Source of the DNA: Terriglobia bacterium
GTDB taxonomy: Bacteria; Acidobacteriota; Terriglobia; JAJPHL01
Direction of reading: 5' to 3'
Assembly (NCBI GenBank): GCA_021325275.1
Contig: JAJPHL010000052.1
Location: 1 to 51,589, forward strand
DNA length: 51,589 nt
Shown here: piece by piece, positions 25,504 through 39,419 of the stretch
How positions within the stretch are numbered: the first letter of the stretch is position 1
How the letters are laid out: the number at the start of each line of letters is the position of its first letter
Notes under the pieces: generated by a model
Database searches by the model: none
Seen by the model: only the letters and a program-made list of their open reading frames with translations
What the model was told of the DNA's origin: nothing
Position numbers and translations under genes: made by a program

Positions 25504-28007
25504 TCGCGAAACAATTTGGAGTGCGGCGACTTGTCGCCGCTTTGTCTTGGCGTACGCGCAAAGCCGGAGGACCAAAGCGGCGACAAGTCGCCGCACTCCA
25601 AATGGCCGTTCTGCTCATCACGCTCGCCGCTCATGCCGAGGACGGACGCAACGCGTGGCTGCGCTATGCACCGATCGACAATCCGCCCGCGCTGCCGGCG
25701 GTGATCTATACGAAAGGCGATTCGCCCATCCTCAAGAATGCGCAAGCGGAAATTGTGCGCGGCGTTGCGAGCATGACAGGGCGCACGCTGCGGATCGAAT
25801 CGTCGATACCGAAGGAACCGGCCATCGTTATCGACCCGACTTCGTCGGGCGTTCCCACCGACGGCTTCGTCTTGAAGAACTTCACGATCTCCGCGTCGAG
25901 CGATCGTGGCGCGCTGTACGGCGCGTTCGCGTTCCTTCGCAGAATCGCGCTCGGTGAAACACTCGACGACCAACAGCAACCATACGCGCCGGTGCGTTGG
26001 GTCAACGAGTGGGACAACTTGAACGGAACAATCGAGCGCGGCTATGGCGGACGCTCGATCTTCTGGGAAGACAATCACGCCCGCGCGGACCTCTCGCGCG
26101 TCGGCGAATACGCCCGCCTGCTCGCGTCGCTCGGCATCAACGGCTGCGACATCTCGAACGTCAACGCGAATCCCCTGCTGCTGTCGCCAGGATTCGACAA
26201 GGAAATCGCGCGCGTCGCCGAGCAATTTCGTCCGTGGGGCGTGCATGTCGCGATTTCGATCGCCTTCGGCAGCCCGAAAACCATCGGCGGACTCGACACG
26301 TTCGATCCCGCCGATCCCAAAGTGATCGAATGGTGGAAAGCGACAATCGACCGCTTGTACGCGACGGTACCCGATCTCGCGGGCATCGTGGTCAAGGCCG
26401 ATTCCGAAGGACAACTCGGGCCGTCGTTCTACAAACGCAGTCACGCCGATGCCGCCAATGTTGTGGCGCGCGCGCTGAAACCACACGGCGGAATCCTTTT
26501 CTATCGCGGATTCGTCTACGACAATCACATGGACTGGCGCAATCTGAAAAACGATCGGGCCCGCGCCGCCTACGACAATTTCCACGACCTCGACGGCAAG
26601 TTCGACGACAACGTAGTGATTCAGATCAAGCACGGTCCCATCGATTTTCAGGTGCGCGAGCCGGCGTCGCCGCTTTTCGGCGCGCTCGAAAAAACAAATC
26701 AAGCGATCGAACTGCAAATCACGCAGGAATATTTCGGCCAAGCGCGGCAAACCGTCTTTCTGCCGACGATGTGGAAAGAAGTTCTCGATTTCGACATGCA
26801 CGCGGCGCTTGGATCCAACGGCAGCGACAACACGCCGGTGAAGGCGCTCGTCGCCGGAAAAGTTTTTCATCGTCCGCTGGGAGGATTTGTCGGCGTGTCG
26901 AACGTGGGCCTTGACGCAAATTGGTACGGCAATCACATGTCGCAGGCCAATCTTTATGGATTCGGAAGACTCGCGTGGAATCCCGACTTGAGCGCCAAAC
27001 AAATCGCCGAAGAATGGACGCGGCTCACCTTCAACGCCGATCCGCAGGTGATGAAAACGGTGGCGGGGATTCAGTTGCGTTCGTGGAGTGTCTTTGAACA
27101 TTACACAGGACCACTTGGTTTGCAGACGCTCACCGAAATCGCTGGCAATCACTTTGGACCATCGGTGGAATCGAGCGAACGCAACGGTTGGGGACAGTGG
27201 CATCGCTCCGACGAGCACGGCTCGGGCATGGACCGCACATCGGCGACGGGCACGGGCTTCATCGGGCAGTATCGACCAAAGGTTGCGGCAATGTATGAAT
27301 CGCTCGAAACCTGTCCCGACGATTTGCTGCTGTTCATGCATCACGGCCCATACACCTACAAACTGCACAACGGCAAGACGGTGATCCAGTACATTTACGA
27401 CGTGCATTACCAAGGCGCCGAGGAAGCCGCGCAATACGTGCGCGATTGGAAAACGCTGCGCGGCCGCATCGACGACGATCGCTACGCGGCCATCCTGGCG
27501 CAACTTGAGTATCAAGAAGGCGTGGCGCAATTATGGCGTGACGCGATCACAATTTGGTTTTGGAAAACGTCAGGAATCGCCGACGCGCAGAATCGCGTGG
27601 GGAAATATCCCGGCCGCCAGGAAGCCGAGTTCATGAAGCTCGACGGCTATACGCCGGTGGACGCGCGCCCCTGGGAGTCGGCGTCAGGTGGAAAAGGCGT
27701 GGAGTGCAAAGCGGCAAAGTGTGCCGCAAGTTTCCGCTACGACGGCGCCGCGGGATGGCACACGTTGAACGTGCGCTATTTCGACATGCCCCAAGGCGTC
27801 GCGCATTTCCGCTTGTTCGTCGGCGATCAGCAAATCGCCGAATGGGCCGCCGACGATCATTTCCCCGCCCGCAAGCTCGATGGCGCGGCGTCGACTCGGA
27901 TTCTGGTGCATGGAATCGCGCTACGCCCCGGTGACGAAATCCGCGTGGAAGGTACGCCGGACAATCAGGATCACGCGGCGTTGGACTATATTGAGATTTT
28001 GCCGTAG
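25500..28007 (+). CDS. GH67 alpha-glucuronidase with a repeat inserted at its N-terminus
   Basis: Releases (4-O-methyl-)glucuronic acid from xylo-oligosaccharide ends. The 835-residue protein carries GH67 signatures: Glu303 in VVKADSEGQLGPS, Asp382 in KHGPIDFQV and Glu410 in ITQEYFGQ, with the 28-residue spacing of the last two as in known GH67 enzymes, plus FVGVSNVG and NWYGNHMSQANLYGFGRLAWNP. The ATG at 25500 overlaps the SDR stop (ATGA). An 87-base in-frame inverted repeat (25515-25602) follows codon 5, pushing the short hydrophobic signal (MAVLLITLAAHA, from residue 35) inward. The internal ATG at 25602 could be the working start. An extra C-terminal beta domain follows the catalytic part. 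Confidence 0.92.
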   Translation: MIAKQFGVRRLVAALSWRTRKAGGPKRRQVAALQMAVLLITLAAHAEDGRNAWLRYAPIDNPPALPAVIYTKGDSPILKNAQAEIVRGVASMTGRTLRIESSIPKEPAIVIDPTSSGVPTDGFVLKNFTISASSDRGALYGAFAFLRRIALGETLDDQQQPYAPVRWVNEWDNLNGTIERGYGGRSIFWEDNHARADLSRVGEYARLLASLGINGCDISNVNANPLLLSPGFDKEIARVAEQFRPWGVHVAISIAFGSPKTIGGLDTFDPADPKVIEWWKATIDRLYATVPDLAGIVVKADSEGQLGPSFYKRSHADAANVVARALKPHGGILFYRGFVYDNHMDWRNLKNDRARAAYDNFHDLDGKFDDNVVIQIKHGPIDFQVREPASPLFGALEKTNQAIELQITQEYFGQARQTVFLPTMWKEVLDFDMHAALGSNGSDNTPVKALVAGKVFHRPLGGFVGVSNVGLDANWYGNHMSQANLYGFGRLAWNPDLSAKQIAEEWTRLTFNADPQVMKTVAGIQLRSWSVFEHYTGPLGLQTLTEIAGNHFGPSVESSERNGWGQWHRSDEHGSGMDRTSATGTGFIGQYRPKVAAMYESLETCPDDLLLFMHHGPYTYKLHNGKTVIQYIYDVHYQGAEEAAQYVRDWKTLRGRIDDDRYAAILAQLEYQEGVAQLWRDAITIWFWKTSGIADAQNRVGKYPGRQEAEFMKLDGYTPVDARPWESASGGKGVECKAAKCAASFRYDGAAGWHTLNVRYFDMPQGVAHFRLFVGDQQIAEWAADDHFPARKLDGAASTRILVHGIALRPGDEIRVEGTPDNQDHAALDYIEILP
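25515..25602. repeat. REP/BIME-like double hairpin inside the alpha-glucuronidase reading frame
   Basis: A perfect 29-base inverted repeat: arms at 25515-25543 and 25574-25602 around a 30-base centre. Each arm is itself a hairpin with GCGGCGAC-TT-GTCGCCGC. Removing 25515-25601 leaves MIAKQ joined in frame to MAVLLITLAAHA, so the element looks like a later insertion of 29 codons. Paired mirrored hairpins of this kind resemble REP elements mobilised by RAYT transposases. No RAYT gene is in the window. Confidence 0.9.
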
Positions 28008-28020
28008 CCCGCAAATCCTC

Positions 28021-28191
28021 TCACCGACCTTTTACTTCGCTGAATAGAAAATCTAGTTTGCCGCCATCGCTATCGCGATACATCTGTTCGTCCCAACGAG
28101 CGCTATCATGCCCACCGAGCCAGCGCGAAAGGTCGCTATATTCATCCGGCGACAACGCTTCAATTGCGGTCTGGATTTCTTGGACGCCCAT
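28021..28191 (-). CDS. Orphan addiction-module antitoxin-like small protein
   Basis: A 56-residue reading frame (MGVQEIQTAIEALSPDEYSD to KLDFLFSEVKGR). Its pattern, V.EI..AI..LSPDEY.DL..WL...D..RWDEQ...D...GKLD.L..E, is that of the small antitoxins paired with RelE/ParE-type toxins. No toxin gene follows: the frame ends 14 bases from the convergent alpha-glucuronidase stop. It is therefore an orphan, a solitary regulator or a relic. No clear ribosome site is seen before the ATG at 28191. It lies next to the large NTPase gene, in a patch that looks horizontally acquired. Confidence 0.75.
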   Translation of the reverse strand: MGVQEIQTAIEALSPDEYSDLSRWLGGHDSARWDEQMYRDSDGGKLDFLFSEVKGR

Positions 28192-28267: not shown

Positions 28268-31200
28268 ATGTCCCCTAAGTATCCGTGGCGCCGTTTCTGG
28301 TTTCCGACCGATGAGGAAATTCAGCTCGACGGCGGCTACCTGATCGACCCAGAAAACGAATATGGCAAATATTACAATCAGCGCGGCAAACCGCTGGAAA
28401 GCTTCAGCCAGATCAAGTGCCTCGTGCTATTAGGGGAGCCTGGCATAGGCAAGTCAACTGAAATTTCGTTCGAGGAAAGCGTTGATCATACGGGTGATCT
28501 GCACGTCACGAAGAACTTAGCGGTGTATCAAACGATCAGCGACCTGCGACAGGACATTTTCGATAGCACAGAGGTTGCCGAATGGAAGACAGGCAGCCGC
28601 CTACTGTTTCTGTCTCTCGACAGCCTAGATGAAGCCTTGTTATCTATCGAGGTTCTGGCGCTTCGGCTACCTGAACTTCTTAAGACGCTCGCTGTTGACA
28701 GACTGCGCTTGCGGATCGCGTGTCGGCCTGCTGTTTGGCCCCAAGCGCTTGAAGACTCCCTGCGCCAACTCTGGAAAGAAAAACCGACAGTGCTCCAACT
28801 CGCGCCGCTGCGGCGAGGGGATGTCCTAGCTACGGCGCGAGAGCGTGGCCTTGATGCCAACGCATTTCTCTCCAAGGTCGACGAGCTCGGCGTTTCACCG
28901 CTTGCAGCCCGACCAATAACGCTAGAGATGCTACTCAAAATGGCCGAAAAAGGCCGTTTGGGAAGGAACTGCACTCAAAGACAGGTATACCAAGAAGGTT
29001 GCCAGTGGCTTGCCGAGGAGACGAGCAAGAACAGGCGTGCGGCGAACCGTATCGGGGATCTCAGCGGCGAGCAACGATTTGCCGTCGCGACACGAATCGC
29101 TTACATCGTAACGCTGTCGGGCATGTCTTCGGTTTGGATCGCCAGCCCCGTCGAAGATCGGCCCGAATCGGCGATACAGGTTGCCGAACTCGTTGGTGGG
29201 GCGGAACCTTTAGAAACCGGTGCTGTAGTGGTTGACGAAGCCGGTGTGCGGGAAACGCTCGACACCGCGCTCTTCGCCGCCGGGTCAACGAATGCGATCC
29301 GTTTGGCTCATCGATCCTACGGTGAGTTTCTGGCGGCCAAATACGCTGCAAGCCATTTAACCTTCGACCAGATCCGCGACGTTTTACTTCATGCGACGCC
29401 GGACGGCAGAATTGTGCCGCCCCAGTTATACTCGGTCGCCGCATGGCTGGCTGTCATGCGACCGGACGTCCTGAGATACCTGATCGGCGCGCAACCTCGC
29501 GTGCTCGTAGATGGCGACGCACTGGACTTTCCGGAGCCGGCTCGCGCGCAAATTGTGGACCGCCTGCTGGATCTCGCGCGCCGTGGTGACCTCCATTTTC
29601 ATTCCATACCTTACAATCGCTACTCGAAGCTAAAACACACCGGACTCGCCGCACAGCTCGAGCCCACGCTGCTCGACAAAGCAAGCCCGGCGGGAACCAG
29701 AGAGATCGCCTTTGGCTTGGCAATGGCTTGCGATGTTGAAGCGCTCGGCGACTGCGCCGCGACAATTTGCCTGGACGTGAAGGAGAAAACCGAGATCAGA
29801 ACGCGCGCGGCCTACGCGGTGCGACGGATCGGGAACGCTGCGGCCAAGGAGCGCTTGAAGGCGCTGGTTCAAACTGGTGCTGATGATCCGAACGATGAGA
29901 TTAAGGGCTGTGCGCTCGACTGCTGCTTTCCACTCTGCATGAATGTGGAGGAACTCCTGGCCGCGCTGCAGCCTCCCAAAACAAACTCCTTCATCGGAGC
30001 GTACAGAGGATTCTTGCAGGATCTTGCAACAAGGCTTGCGCCAAACGAGTTGCCGACTTTACTCCGGTGGATCGTAAGCGAGACACCACCCTACACCAGC
30101 CCGTTCCGAGAATTGGCCGGCGCGTTGTGCCTGCGCGCATTAGAGAATCTCGATACAACCGCCGTGCCCGATGCACTAGTCGCATTTCTAGCGACCGATT
30201 TCGGGATGTACACCACCGTTGATCGAGACATCAGGGAGGAATTTCGTGCCGCGAGTGGCCATAAGCGCCTCCTTCCTCATCTCCTGTCGAGCCTGCGCGA
30301 ACCGAAGGATCTTGTACAACACTACTATCCGCTGTTCGATAGCTCGGATGTCCCGTGGCTCATTCAGGAGCTTCAGATCGCGAGCTCATCGGCAGCCCGC
30401 CAAGCTTTAGCTAAGTTAATTGCACCGTACGCTACAACGCAATCGGACGCCGTTATCGTTGCTTGCCAGTGGAGCGCCGAATTGGCATCCGCATTGTCGC
30501 ATCTGATCGATCCAATTGAGATCGCTTCAGACGAAGCCCGTCGGCAAAGGGAATTCTGGGAACAAGGAAAGCGTCGCGAAGAAGAACGTCAACCTCTTCG
30601 GAGCCCAACGCCGCGGGAATGCGTTCTCGCTCGTCTGGAGGCTTCCGAAAGGGACTCGCCATTCGCCTGGTTGCGACTTGTTGAAGACCTTAGTCTGAAG
30701 CCAAGAAGCATCCGGCCTCAGCACGGGTGGGATGTTGCGACGATGCCTGGGTGGATCGAAGCCGATGCCGCCCTGCGTGAGCGAATTCTAAGTGGCGCAG
30801 TACGGTTCCTGGAAAACGCGGATTCTGTCTGGCGAAAATTTGTAGGCACGAATAAAATCGCAACCTCAACGCTCCGAGCTTATCAAGCGCTACGGCTCTT
30901 ATATGTCGTCGATCGCCCGAGATTGAACGCCCTAGGGACTGCGACTTGGACGAACTGGGCTGGAGACCTCTTATTCGTCTACCTTGATCGTGAAGAAGAA
31001 GCCATTCGTGGCGAACTGCTCAAGCTGACGCTTGAGAAGTCACGCGACGCATTTCTCGAACCGTTATTGCTCACAATTCGCTGCCCCAATGCGATGATTA
31101 GCTATAATTCGGCCCGCGATCGCATCAATGCGTGCTGGAGCGATGACATGGCGAAGGGCCTCAAGAAAGCTCTGCGATCCGGCCATTGCCGCGCATCGGC

Positions 31201-32371
31201 TGCTGGCATCGTCGTAGCTGACCTACTGGTGCACCGCGTCGATGGATCGGAAGCCCTCGCGCGGTCTCTCCTCCGCTTCCCTCTTAGAAAGGGTGGGTGC
31301 CGTCGGATTCGCACAACCGCGATTGTCCGCGCGCTCTTGCAGCAGCGGCCTAGCCTAGGCTGGGCGCTGGTGAGGCCTCATCTCGAAAACGATCCTGATC
31401 TGCTCGCTGGGATAACGGCGGATGAGATTTGGCAACACTCCTGGAAACTAGACGGCCTCTCAGAGGAGCAAGCAGGCAACTATTTCGAGTTGCTCGTCAA
31501 GGCCTTCCCTGGTGGCGATGATTTGGGTGAGAGCGAGGCGGCAGTCGTGCTGGGATCGCGACAGGACATGGACCGCTACAGCTACAGCGTTCTGGAGCAC
31601 ATTCAGAACCGGGGGACATGGAAGGCAGTTGAGGTGTTAGCAGGAATTCGAGACCGCCACCCTGAGTTGCCTTGGCTGGCCCAAGCCACATTGAGCGCTC
31701 GAAGGGTCGCTGCCGAGCGCCAGTGGACTCCGCCGCGGCCGAGTGAGCTTCTGGCTCTGGCGGAACCGAAGAATCGCCTCGTGCAAGATGGAGAAACGCT
31801 CTTGGATTTGATTACGGAATGTCTCAAGCGGTACGAGACACAGGTTCTCCATGGAGACACACCAAGAGTGGCGCGACTTTGGAGTGATGTGCAATTCAAG
31901 CCCGAGTTCAAGGCGAAGCCCAAGGACGAAGCTGAGTTGTCTGATGAGCTTAAGGTTTACCTTGAGCGCGAACTTCGCGATGCAGGGATCGTTATTAATC
32001 GCGAGGTGGAGGTGAGCCGCAACTCCAAAACAGGTTTCTATCCAGACATCTATGTGACAGCAACTCTAGCGCCTCAGTTGGGTGGAGATCAAATCAGGGC
32101 AGCTGTTGAGGTAAAAGGCAACTGGAACGATGAACTAATGACGGCCATACCAGAGCAACTGGTTCGCAAATACTTTAACGCATCCTGTTGTCATGGACTC
32201 TATGTGGTCGGGTGGTATAACTGTCCAAGTTGGGATAGCGACGACTACAGGCAAAAGCTCTGCGCTAAACTCGACCGTGAAGCGATTACGTTGGAGCTTA
32301 AGCGGCAAGCGAAAGAGGCCTCGAAAGATGGCCGACAGGTAAGAGTGCTGATTCTCGATACCAGCCGCTAG
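28268..32371 (+). CDS. Large STAND/NACHT-like NTPase with C-terminal PD-(D/E)XK nuclease-like domain
   Basis: A 1367-residue protein, probably an antiviral or abortive-infection sensor. Near the N-terminus are a Walker A (GEPGIGKST, 56-64) and a Walker B (LLFLSLDSLDEAL, 112-124) of the P-loop NACHT/STAND kind. The long middle (roughly 350-1180) is alpha-helical and reads like HEAT/armadillo-type sensor repeats. The C-terminus has a restriction-endonuclease-like core: Asp1260 (FYPDIYV), then Glu1281 and Lys1283 (VEVKGNW), and QLVRKYF. Known Avs proteins carry the nuclease at the N-terminus, so the order here is reversed. Codon use looks less GC-biased than its neighbours. It is flanked by an orphan and a truncated antitoxin. 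No partner gene is evident. Confidence 0.8.
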   Translation: MSPKYPWRRFWFPTDEEIQLDGGYLIDPENEYGKYYNQRGKPLESFSQIKCLVLLGEPGIGKSTEISFEESVDHTGDLHVTKNLAVYQTISDLRQDIFDSTEVAEWKTGSRLLFLSLDSLDEALLSIEVLALRLPELLKTLAVDRLRLRIACRPAVWPQALEDSLRQLWKEKPTVLQLAPLRRGDVLATARERGLDANAFLSKVDELGVSPLAARPITLEMLLKMAEKGRLGRNCTQRQVYQEGCQWLAEETSKNRRAANRIGDLSGEQRFAVATRIAYIVTLSGMSSVWIASPVEDRPESAIQVAELVGGAEPLETGAVVVDEAGVRETLDTALFAAGSTNAIRLAHRSYGEFLAAKYAASHLTFDQIRDVLLHATPDGRIVPPQLYSVAAWLAVMRPDVLRYLIGAQPRVLVDGDALDFPEPARAQIVDRLLDLARRGDLHFHSIPYNRYSKLKHTGLAAQLEPTLLDKASPAGTREIAFGLAMACDVEALGDCAATICLDVKEKTEIRTRAAYAVRRIGNAAAKERLKALVQTGADDPNDEIKGCALDCCFPLCMNVEELLAALQPPKTNSFIGAYRGFLQDLATRLAPNELPTLLRWIVSETPPYTSPFRELAGALCLRALENLDTTAVPDALVAFLATDFGMYTTVDRDIREEFRAASGHKRLLPHLLSSLREPKDLVQHYYPLFDSSDVPWLIQELQIASSSAARQALAKLIAPYATTQSDAVIVACQWSAELASALSHLIDPIEIASDEARRQREFWEQGKRREEERQPLRSPTPRECVLARLEASERDSPFAWLRLVEDLSLKPRSIRPQHGWDVATMPGWIEADAALRERILSGAVRFLENADSVWRKFVGTNKIATSTLRAYQALRLLYVVDRPRLNALGTATWTNWAGDLLFVYLDREEEAIRGELLKLTLEKSRDAFLEPLLLTIRCPNAMISYNSARDRINACWSDDMAKGLKKALRSGHCRASAAGIVVADLLVHRVDGSEALARSLLRFPLRKGGCRRIRTTAIVRALLQQRPSLGWALVRPHLENDPDLLAGITADEIWQHSWKLDGLSEEQAGNYFELLVKAFPGGDDLGESEAAVVLGSRQDMDRYSYSVLEHIQNRGTWKAVEVLAGIRDRHPELPWLAQATLSARRVAAERQWTPPRPSELLALAEPKNRLVQDGETLLDLITECLKRYETQVLHGDTPRVARLWSDVQFKPEFKAKPKDEAELSDELKVYLERELRDAGIVINREVEVSRNSKTGFYPDIYVTATLAPQLGGDQIRAAVEVKGNWNDELMTAIPEQLVRKYFNASCCHGLYVVGWYNCPSWDSDDYRQKLCAKLDREAITLELKRQAKEASKDGRQVRVLILDTSR

Positions 32372-36518: not shown

Positions 36519-39419
36519 TCATCCCTTCGCTAAGACTTGCGCCAGATGCCGGCCGGTGTGCGACTCCTTCACCTTCGCCACGGCTTCAGGAGATCCCTGC
36601 GCGACGAGCTTCCCGCCGTGCAATCCGCCCTCGGGCCCCAGGTCGATGACCCAATCGGCCGTCTTGATCACGTCGAGGTTGTGCTCGATGATGAGAATGC
36701 TGCCGCCATCGTCGATGAGCTTGCGAAACGCCGCGAGTAATTTGTTGATGTCGTCAAAATGCAAGCCGGTCGTAGGTTCGTCAAAGAGATAAAGCACGCG
36801 CTCGCTCGAACCTTGCGTGAGATGCGCGGCGAGTTTCACACGCTGCGCTTCCCCTCCCGATAGCGTCGAGGCCGGCTGGCCGAGCCGCAAGTATCCGAGT
36901 CCGACCTCATCCAAAACTTTCAGCCGGCCCGCGACCTTCGGGACATTTTGGAAAAACCCGATCGCTTCGCGCACGGTGAGTTGCAGCACTTCGTGAATAT
37001 TCTTCCCGCGATAGCGCACTTCCAACACGCCGTGTTTGAAGCGCGTACCCTGGCATTCTTCGCAAACGAGTTCCACGTCGGCGAGAAATTGCATTTCTAC
37101 GGTCACCGTGCCGTCGCCTTGACACGCTTCACAGCGGCCGCCCGGAATGTTGAACGAAAAATGACCGTTATTGTAGCCGCGTTTCACGGCTTCGGGCTGC
37201 TGCGCGAAAAGCTCGCGGATGGAATCGAACGCCTTGATGTAGGTCACGGGATTCGAGCGCGGCGTGCGGCCGATTGGCGATTGGTCCACCAACACGATTT
37301 CCTTTACGAGTTTCGACCCTTCGAGTTTGCGGCATCGCAGGCGGGTGGCTTGCGCGGCGGCGGCTTCATCGCCGGATTGCGCCGCGGCGGCCGCGCCCAA
37401 CAGCGGTCCCGCGTCGGGCTTGGCGCCCCATCCCACGCCGAGCGATTTCAACCCCTCGTAAATCACTTGATGCACCAGCGTCGACTTGCCCGATCCCGAA
37501 ACGCCGGTCACCGCGACCATCATGCCGAGCGGAATGGTCACGTCGAGTCCGCGCAGGTTGTGGATCGTCGCGCCGACGACACGAAGTTGATTTTTTGCGT
37601 TTGGGGTGCGCCGCGTTTCCGGCACTTTCACGCGCAGTTCGTTGCGCAGATACAAACCGGTTAGCGAATTCCCGCGCATGAGTTGCGGAAATGTCCCCGA
37701 GAAAACCACGCGGCCGCCGTTTTCACCCGCACCGGGGCCGAGGTCGAGGATGTAATCGGCGGAGTTCATCACTTCGCGATCGTGCTCCACCACCAGGATC
37801 GTGTTGCCGAGATCGCGCAGGTCGTGCAAGATGCGAATCAGGCGCGAGGTGTCGCGCGGATGCAAGCCGATCGACGGTTCGTCGAGTACGTAGAGCGCGC
37901 CGACCAAGCGCGATCCCAGCGACGTGGCGAGTTGGATGCGCTGCGCCTCGCCGCCGGAGAGCGTCGCGGTGAGGCGGTCGAGCGTGAGGTACTCCAGTCC
38001 CGTGTTGCTCAGAAATCGCAAGCGGTCACGGATTTCGTCGAGCACTTTTCCGGCGATTTCCGCCTGCATCGGCGTCAATTGCAGCTCGTTGAAGAACGGC
38101 GCGGCTTGTTCGATGGTCAAGCGGCACGCTTCGCCGATATTTTTTCCGCCCACGCGCACGTGCAGCGCCGGTTTCGACAAGCGCCAGCCTTGGCACTCCG
38201 GGCACAGCGTATATCCGCGATAGCGGCTCAAAAAAACGCGCACATGCAGCTTGTATTTCTTGCGCTCCAGGTAATCGAAAAATCCTTTGATGCCGGGAAA
38301 CTTCCCGCGGCCGTTGTGCAGGATGTTCAACTCGTCGGCGGTGAGATCGCAGTACGGGACGTCGGTGCGAATGCCCAGCGATTTCGCGCTGCGTTTCAGT
38401 TCCGTGTAGTACGCCTTATACTTTGGCTTGGTCCACGGCTCGATCGCGCCCTCGTCGAGTTTCAGCAGGCGGTCGGGGATCACAAGGTCCATGTCGAAAT
38501 CGACGGTATTGCCGAATCCTTGGCAGCGCGTGCACGCGCCGAACGGCGAATTGAAGGAAAAAAGGTGCGGCTCGGGATCGGGCGCCGGCGTGCCGCAATT
38601 TTTGCACTCGAAGCGCTCGTTGAAACGCAGGCGCGCGTCGTCCATCTCCCAAATCGACTCGCCGCCTTCGCGATAGCACGACTCCACGGCATCGATCAAG
38701 CGCTGGCGGAACGCGGGATCATTGCGAACGTCGTCGTTGATGGCAAGACGATCGGCGAGAACGAAAACCGGTTCCTTGAAATCGATTTCCAGCAGCGATT
38801 CCGGCGTGGAGAATTCGAAGACGCGGCTCTTCTGAAAAAGCCGCGAGAATCCACGCTTGCGAAGATCGAAGAGGCGCTCCTTCAGAAGCTTGTCATCCGC
38901 CAAATGCGTGCCGTGACGCTCCACGGGAAACAACACTTGGACGCGGCGCGTTTCACCGGGCTTCCCGCACGACAAAATCCGCTGCGCGACTTCATCGACC
39001 GAGTCGCGGCGGACTTCGCTGCCGCATTTCGTGCAATACGTCCGCCCGACGCGCGCGTAGAGCAAGCGCATGTAGTCGTATATTTCCGTGGCCGTCGCGA
39101 CCGTGGATCGCTGGTTGCGTGTCGTATTCTTCTGCTTGATCGCGATGGCCGGCGCGATGCCGGTGATCTCGTCAACGTCCGGCTTTTCCATGCGTTCGAG
39201 GAACTGCCGCGCATACGCCGACAGCGACTCCACGTAGCGGCGCTGGCCTTCGGCGTAGATCGTGTCGAACGCCAGGCTCGACTTGCCCGATCCCGAGACG
39301 CCGGTGACAACGGTGAGCGCGTTGTGCGGAATCTCGAAATCGATGTTCTTGAGATTGTGAACACGCGCGCCACGGACGGAAATGGCGTCGGGCGAAGCGA
39401 AGAGGGGCTGTGCGGACAT
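36519..39419 (-). CDS. uvrA: Excinuclease ABC subunit A
   Basis: DNA-damage recognition ATPase of nucleotide excision repair. The 966-residue protein has two ABC modules: Walker A motifs [14 protein letters not shown] and [14 protein letters not shown], signatures [12 protein letters not shown] and [12 protein letters not shown], and Walker [11 protein letters not shown] and [10 protein letters not shown]. Zinc-finger cysteines are in [12 protein letters not shown]...CTRCQGFG and CEACQGDG...CEECQG. The length is normal. A TATAAT lies 24 bases upstream of the ATG. It is divergent from the receptor at 39524 with about 100 bases between them. Confidence 0.98.

Follow-up and report, generated by a model that had tools for sequence, protein, structure and literature searches.

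A NACHT-HEAT protein with a C-terminal PD-(D/E)XK nuclease domain from a Terriglobia bacterium: a probable antiphage receptor of the EruA/HyoA superfamily

A contig of a Terriglobia bacterium (Acidobacteriota; GenBank assembly GCA_021325275.1, contig JAJPHL010000052.1), analysed at its full length of 51,589 nucleotides and called the window below, carries a gene (28268..32371, forward strand) whose product is predicted to combine an N-terminal NACHT NTPase, a HEAT-type helical solenoid and a C-terminal PD-(D/E)XK nuclease. The gene is a single unbroken open reading frame (ORF) of 1367 codons with an ATG start, as a sequence-only reading of the window had proposed, and all motif residues are intact along a frame free of internal stops. 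Since full-length homologues in many phyla keep the NTPase and nuclease residues invariant or nearly so, the gene is real, and a chance ORF is excluded. Scans of the gene for promoters, terminators, Rfam families and repeats gave no signal above chance. All features of the gene described below lie on the forward strand.

The NTPase is preceded by no more than about 45 residues (residues 1-45; 28268..28402); this lead contains a conserved YxWxRFW...GFLxDP motif and is too short for an effector domain. The NACHT module (residues ~46-400; 28403..29467) comprises a P-loop NTPase and helical and winged-helix parts. It includes the Walker A motif GEPGIGKST (residues 56-64; 28433..28459), the Walker B motif LFLSLDSLDE (residues 113-122; 28604..28633) with the acidic DxxDE pattern (DSLDE, residues 118-122), a NACHT sensor-1-type CR pair (residues 152-153) and, in the winged-helix fold, the motif AHRSYGEFLAA (residues 347-357; 29306..29338), which with its His348 is a NACHT signature. 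In an alignment of 52 homologues covering residues 1-560, G59, G61, K62, D118 and D121 are invariant, whereas E122, H348, E353 and L355-A357 are conserved in at least 90% of sequences. The AlphaFold model of the N-terminal part (predicted local distance difference test score, pLDDT, 93.3) matched NOD2 (4.9e-8), NLRC4 (2.1e-7), Avs4 (5.6e-7) and NLRP3 (2.1e-6), as well as Avs3, in Foldseek searches. Pfam NACHT was detected at E<=0.1 in 36 of the 52 family members (best 1.5e-7), the window protein itself having no match at that level. Family profiles, model and structural matches together bear out the NACHT/STAND assignment made in the sequence-only reading.

The centre of the protein (residues ~401-1152; 29468..31723) is a HEAT-type helical solenoid and the presumed sensor. 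The model is all-helical from residue ~385 to residue 560, where it ends; HEAT repeats are weakly detected by Pfam in the window protein, and the family profile aligns with alphaRep/HEAT proteins, in line with the helical-repeat centre proposed earlier.

The nuclease domain (residues ~1170-1367; 31775..32368) was modelled with a pLDDT of 89.9, and its core follows the order helix-strand-strand-strand-helix-strand, that is, the alpha-beta-beta-beta-alpha-beta arrangement of PD-(D/E)XK enzymes. The catalytic residues Glu1221, Asp1260, Glu1281, Lys1283 and Gln1297 (31928..32158), which form a D...(D/E)XK active site, are invariant together with Tyr1302 in 54 aligned C-terminal domains, namely that of the window protein and 53 others of about 25-42% identity to it. 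Three of these residues (Asp1260, Glu1281 and Lys1283) had been named exactly in the sequence-only reading, and Glu1221 and Gln1297 join the set. Conservation of the Glu and Lys columns is partly ascertained, as some loci were fetched with a pattern containing the E-x-K motif; Glu1221, Asp1260 and Gln1297 lie outside that pattern, and the EruA and HyoA sets and the later profile searches were made independently of it. VIA-align of the C-terminal model returned almost solely PD-(D/E)XK proteins, with Z scores of 5-7.8 to many restriction enzymes (EcoT38I, 7.8; PaqCI, 7.4; BstYI, 7.1) and with McrC, EcoRV, EndoMS and MspJI also among the nuclease matches. A search of the PDB by sequence with the nuclease profile gave no match, and a Pfam scan of the domain gave no consistent one. 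The model and the conserved active site support a PD-(D/E)XK nuclease, as had been suspected from the sequence.

Homology over the full length connects the window protein with two curated families, EruA (NF058535) and HyoA (NF058534), both named in NCBIfam as NACHT domain-containing antiphage proteins. It matched the EruA model at 3.5e-74 (250.7 bits) and the HyoA model at 2.9e-47 (161.1 bits), below the equivalog cut-offs of 1000 and 1200 bits, respectively, and both models were matched by 30 of 31 family members. Profile-profile comparison by hhalign of the window family with EruA-like (6.2e-77) and HyoA-like (1.3e-58) sets spanned columns 41-1405 and 16-1404, respectively, out of 1405, as befits members of one superfamily. 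Because it scores far under both cut-offs, the window protein is placed by homology in a separate branch of the EruA/HyoA superfamily, as an equivalog of neither. Relatives above a cut-off (L203 and L218 for EruA, L213 for HyoA) come from Pseudomonadota, and the 18 Pseudomonadota relatives retrieved at full length all have a terminal PD-(D/E)XK domain recognized by the nuclease profile of the window family. The EruA-like, HyoA-like and window-family alignments have the E/D/ExK/Q active-site set in common. EruA-like proteins also share with the window protein the NACHT module in front, the long helical middle and the terminal nuclease; they differ in that all sampled members end in a nuclease, whereas the window branch has other effectors too. 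HyoA shows the same domain order and active site, the window protein being far below its cut-off. A fumarate lyase considered as a relative was rejected, the phmmer E-value of 0.22 being at chance level.

The order of domains is the reverse of that in the better-known systems. Avs proteins begin with the effector and end with the sensor; Avs1-Avs5 (AVAST) share the NACHT/STAND fold with the window protein, Avs4 and Avs3 being among its Foldseek matches, but in the window protein the nuclease is terminal. bNACHT proteins, like all STAND NTPases, are described as having the effector at the N-terminus and the sensor at the C-terminus (PMC12169576), in agreement with the contrast drawn in the sequence-only reading. 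Two of them, bNACHT25 and bNACHT32 of clade 6, are likewise single-gene combinations of a NACHT NTPase with a PD-(D/E)XK nuclease, but with the nuclease first and the sensor last (PMC12169576). The reversed order is nevertheless not new, since it is already present in EruA and HyoA, as judged from sequences passing the NCBIfam cut-offs. C-terminal effectors are also on record for STAND proteins, passages of Kaur et al. 2021 (PMC8195603) placing GT4 effectors C-terminal to several STAND types. These STAND-GT4 conflict proteins resemble the window family in the position of the effector, and one relative (L016) carries a GT4-conflict domain; the window family, with its nuclease, CHAT, PNP-type and transmembrane (TM) tails, is not mentioned in those passages. 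The earlier proposal of a new defence protein thus holds in part: a defence role is supported and the branch is a separate one, whereas the domain order is not new.

The modularity of the tail in this branch is the part that looks new. Searches used either the isolated receptor body or the complete protein as query. The relatives recovered run parallel to the window sequence up to a W.P..P.E.L junction (residues 1153-1166; W.PPRPSELLAL in the window protein, 31724..31765) and then diverge. Beyond it, the tails include CHAT domains (L037, L059 and L221, and L151 by its likeness in sequence to L037), a PNP_UDP_1 domain (L047), the GT4-conflict domain of L016, a hydrolase-like domain with a weak match (L048), two TM helices (L004) or one (L157), and a short module (L138 and L152-L154), for which Pfam scans, where made, gave no match. 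A tree of 74 bodies (1191 columns), built by a quick method and containing several long branches, requires 7 changes of the nuclease label, of which well-supported branches force at least 6. The sister cyanobacterial proteins L138 and L151 are 61-86% identical per 100-residue block up to residue ~1200 and 15-22% identical thereafter, and one Scytonema genome (G426) carries two forms, one with CHAT and one with the short module. From these comparisons, the window branch is reconstructed as having swapped its C-terminal domain on six or more occasions, always at this junction. Because the tail was exchanged while the body was retained, the tail is interpreted as the effector and the body as the receptor.

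Several members depart further from the common plan. The 2170-residue protein L221 (L221:1295-7804) has a NACHT-HEAT body, a CHAT domain and then a second NACHT NTPase, that is, two receptor modules per chain. Divergent members (L158-L161) occur in small genomes (1.7-2.1 Mb) of the Cyanobacteria sample, and in two of these (L158 and L159) the nuclease is replaced by a single terminal hydrophobic segment.

The family is rare within groups and broad across them. Matches were found in 10 of 396 genomes from the window organism's phylum, in 27 of 398 Pseudomonadota genomes (with the family profile), and in the phyla of a Cylindrospermum (14/292), of Singulisphaera (9/294) and of Ktedonobacter (3/251), seeds included. 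Homologues were also identified in ANME-2 and other archaeal bins and on conjugative plasmids of Bradyrhizobium, Rhizobium and Dolichospermum; the gene was absent from all phage records searched. Because of this patchy distribution, the data fit horizontal spread, as for mobile defence genes. A distant NACHT-HEAT protein with a PD-(D/E)XK-like tail on an IMG/VR viral contig (L017:9962-14002) may be a prophage-borne copy. The composition of the window gene is foreign-looking to a moderate degree: its G+C content at third codon positions (GC3) is 0.60, compared with a mean of 0.72 (standard deviation 0.06) in genes from ~0.25 Mb sampled from the source genome, and its codon-use score is the seventh lowest among 130 sampled genes. 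The foreign base and codon use noted earlier is thus real, but unusual rather than extreme.

The sequence-only reading also described the gene as flanked by antitoxin relics, which holds for one side. Upstream and divergent to the gene lies a 56-residue antitoxin-like ORF without a toxin (28024..28191, reverse strand), which has no Pfam match and whose closest genomic copy (38% identity over 52 residues) precedes a RelE-like ORF; nothing recognizable was found downstream. The orphan ORF is probably a remnant unrelated to the gene. The intact-looking relative, a 70-residue antitoxin-like ORF followed by a RelE-like ORF, is present in the same genome (L107:1492-1991). In an empty-site comparison, the relatives of the neighbouring enolase-superfamily gene (60-64% identical) adjoined neither a glycoside hydrolase family 67 (GH67) gene nor other window neighbours. 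Between the short-chain dehydrogenase/reductase (SDR) and GH67 genes, a near-perfect palindrome (25514-25603; DNA fold z -7.9), each arm being 30-odd nt long, casts doubt on the GTG start listed for the GH67 ORF. It is probably a dispersed repeat of the repetitive extragenic palindromic (REP) or miniature inverted-repeat transposable element (MITE) kind, because the genome contains related copies at dozens of sites (99 matching stretches). An ordinary UvrA-like ABC ATPase of 966 residues (36519-39419) adjoins GatB.

We consider that the window protein is probably an antiphage immune receptor encoded by one gene, of the bacterial NACHT (STAND) type and with its effector at the C-terminus. A role in defence is supported by the full-length homology to the curated antiphage families EruA and HyoA. 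In the resting state, ADP would be bound to the NACHT module. The HEAT solenoid would sense a product of infection, probably a phage protein, and exchange of ADP for ATP would then lead the protomers to oligomerize. The oligomer would bring the C-terminal PD-(D/E)XK domains together to cut DNA, and cleavage would bring phage production to a halt, probably through abortive infection. The trigger, oligomerization, substrate and protection are proposed by analogy with Avs proteins and bNACHT25 (PMC12169576) and from the naming of EruA and HyoA as antiphage proteins.

Several results weigh against this interpretation. No PADLOC model matches the window protein, and its relatives are matched at chance level only. 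In the window, the gene lies among GH67, SDR, enolase-superfamily, redoxin and GatB genes, with no defence island. The neighbourhood statistics suggested in the sequence-only reading gave 142 PADLOC models matched by 144 genes around homologues versus 44 by 144 control genes, most of which came from the same genomes or from related ones, an enrichment that is only suggestive, as the models are redundant and the counts are of models, not of genes. The best VIA-align score, Z 7.8, falls within the range reachable by a common arrangement, and Foldseek of the C-terminal model found nothing significant by E-value, the top rows including PspGI, Hachiman HamA, Mus81, MspJI and PaqCI.

Other readings of the same architecture are less probable. 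HEAT repeats are able to bind DNA, and the protein could be a modification- or structure-dependent restriction enzyme whose solenoid binds foreign DNA and whose NTPase drives McrBC-like cleavage that spares the host. McrC, EcoT38I and MspJI among the VIA-align matches would suit such an enzyme; we find it unlikely, however, as the likeness of the NTPase is to NACHT receptors and not to McrB, and the swapped CHAT, GT4, PNP-type and TM tails are ill-suited to restriction. Less credible again is a regulator of the MalT kind, or a housekeeping switch, using the nuclease fold for binding only. MalT has a C-terminal effector, and metabolic genes lie beside the window gene. MalT belongs to the STAND transcription regulators (PMC10427625). 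Against this stand the invariance of the catalytic residues in 54 domains, the kinship to curated antiphage families and the patchy spread. We give least credence to an acquired gene in decay that currently plays no role in its host; its foreign codon use, the lack of a defence island and the orphan antitoxin-like ORF nearby are what such a gene might show, but 1367 stop-free codons with every motif residue intact are not.

With the immune-receptor interpretation, the family comprises bacterial relatives of the animal NOD-like immune receptors, with the nuclease at the tail rather than the head. A bolder generalization, which we advance tentatively and at somewhat less than even chances, is that they represent a widespread tail-armed chassis like that of NOD-like receptors (NLRs), in which a fixed NACHT-HEAT receptor is fitted with varied killing domains at one C-terminal junction, an arrangement that mirrors those of Avs and bNACHT proteins, the signal passing through or around the sensor solenoid. 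The rule that NLR-like proteins have the effector first and the sensor last fails in a large lineage of bacteria and archaea, and this lineage widens the EruA/HyoA antiphage group well past what PADLOC detects. One receptor body with its weapon swapped at a fixed joint constitutes a natural set for studying how the STAND switch acts on a distal effector.

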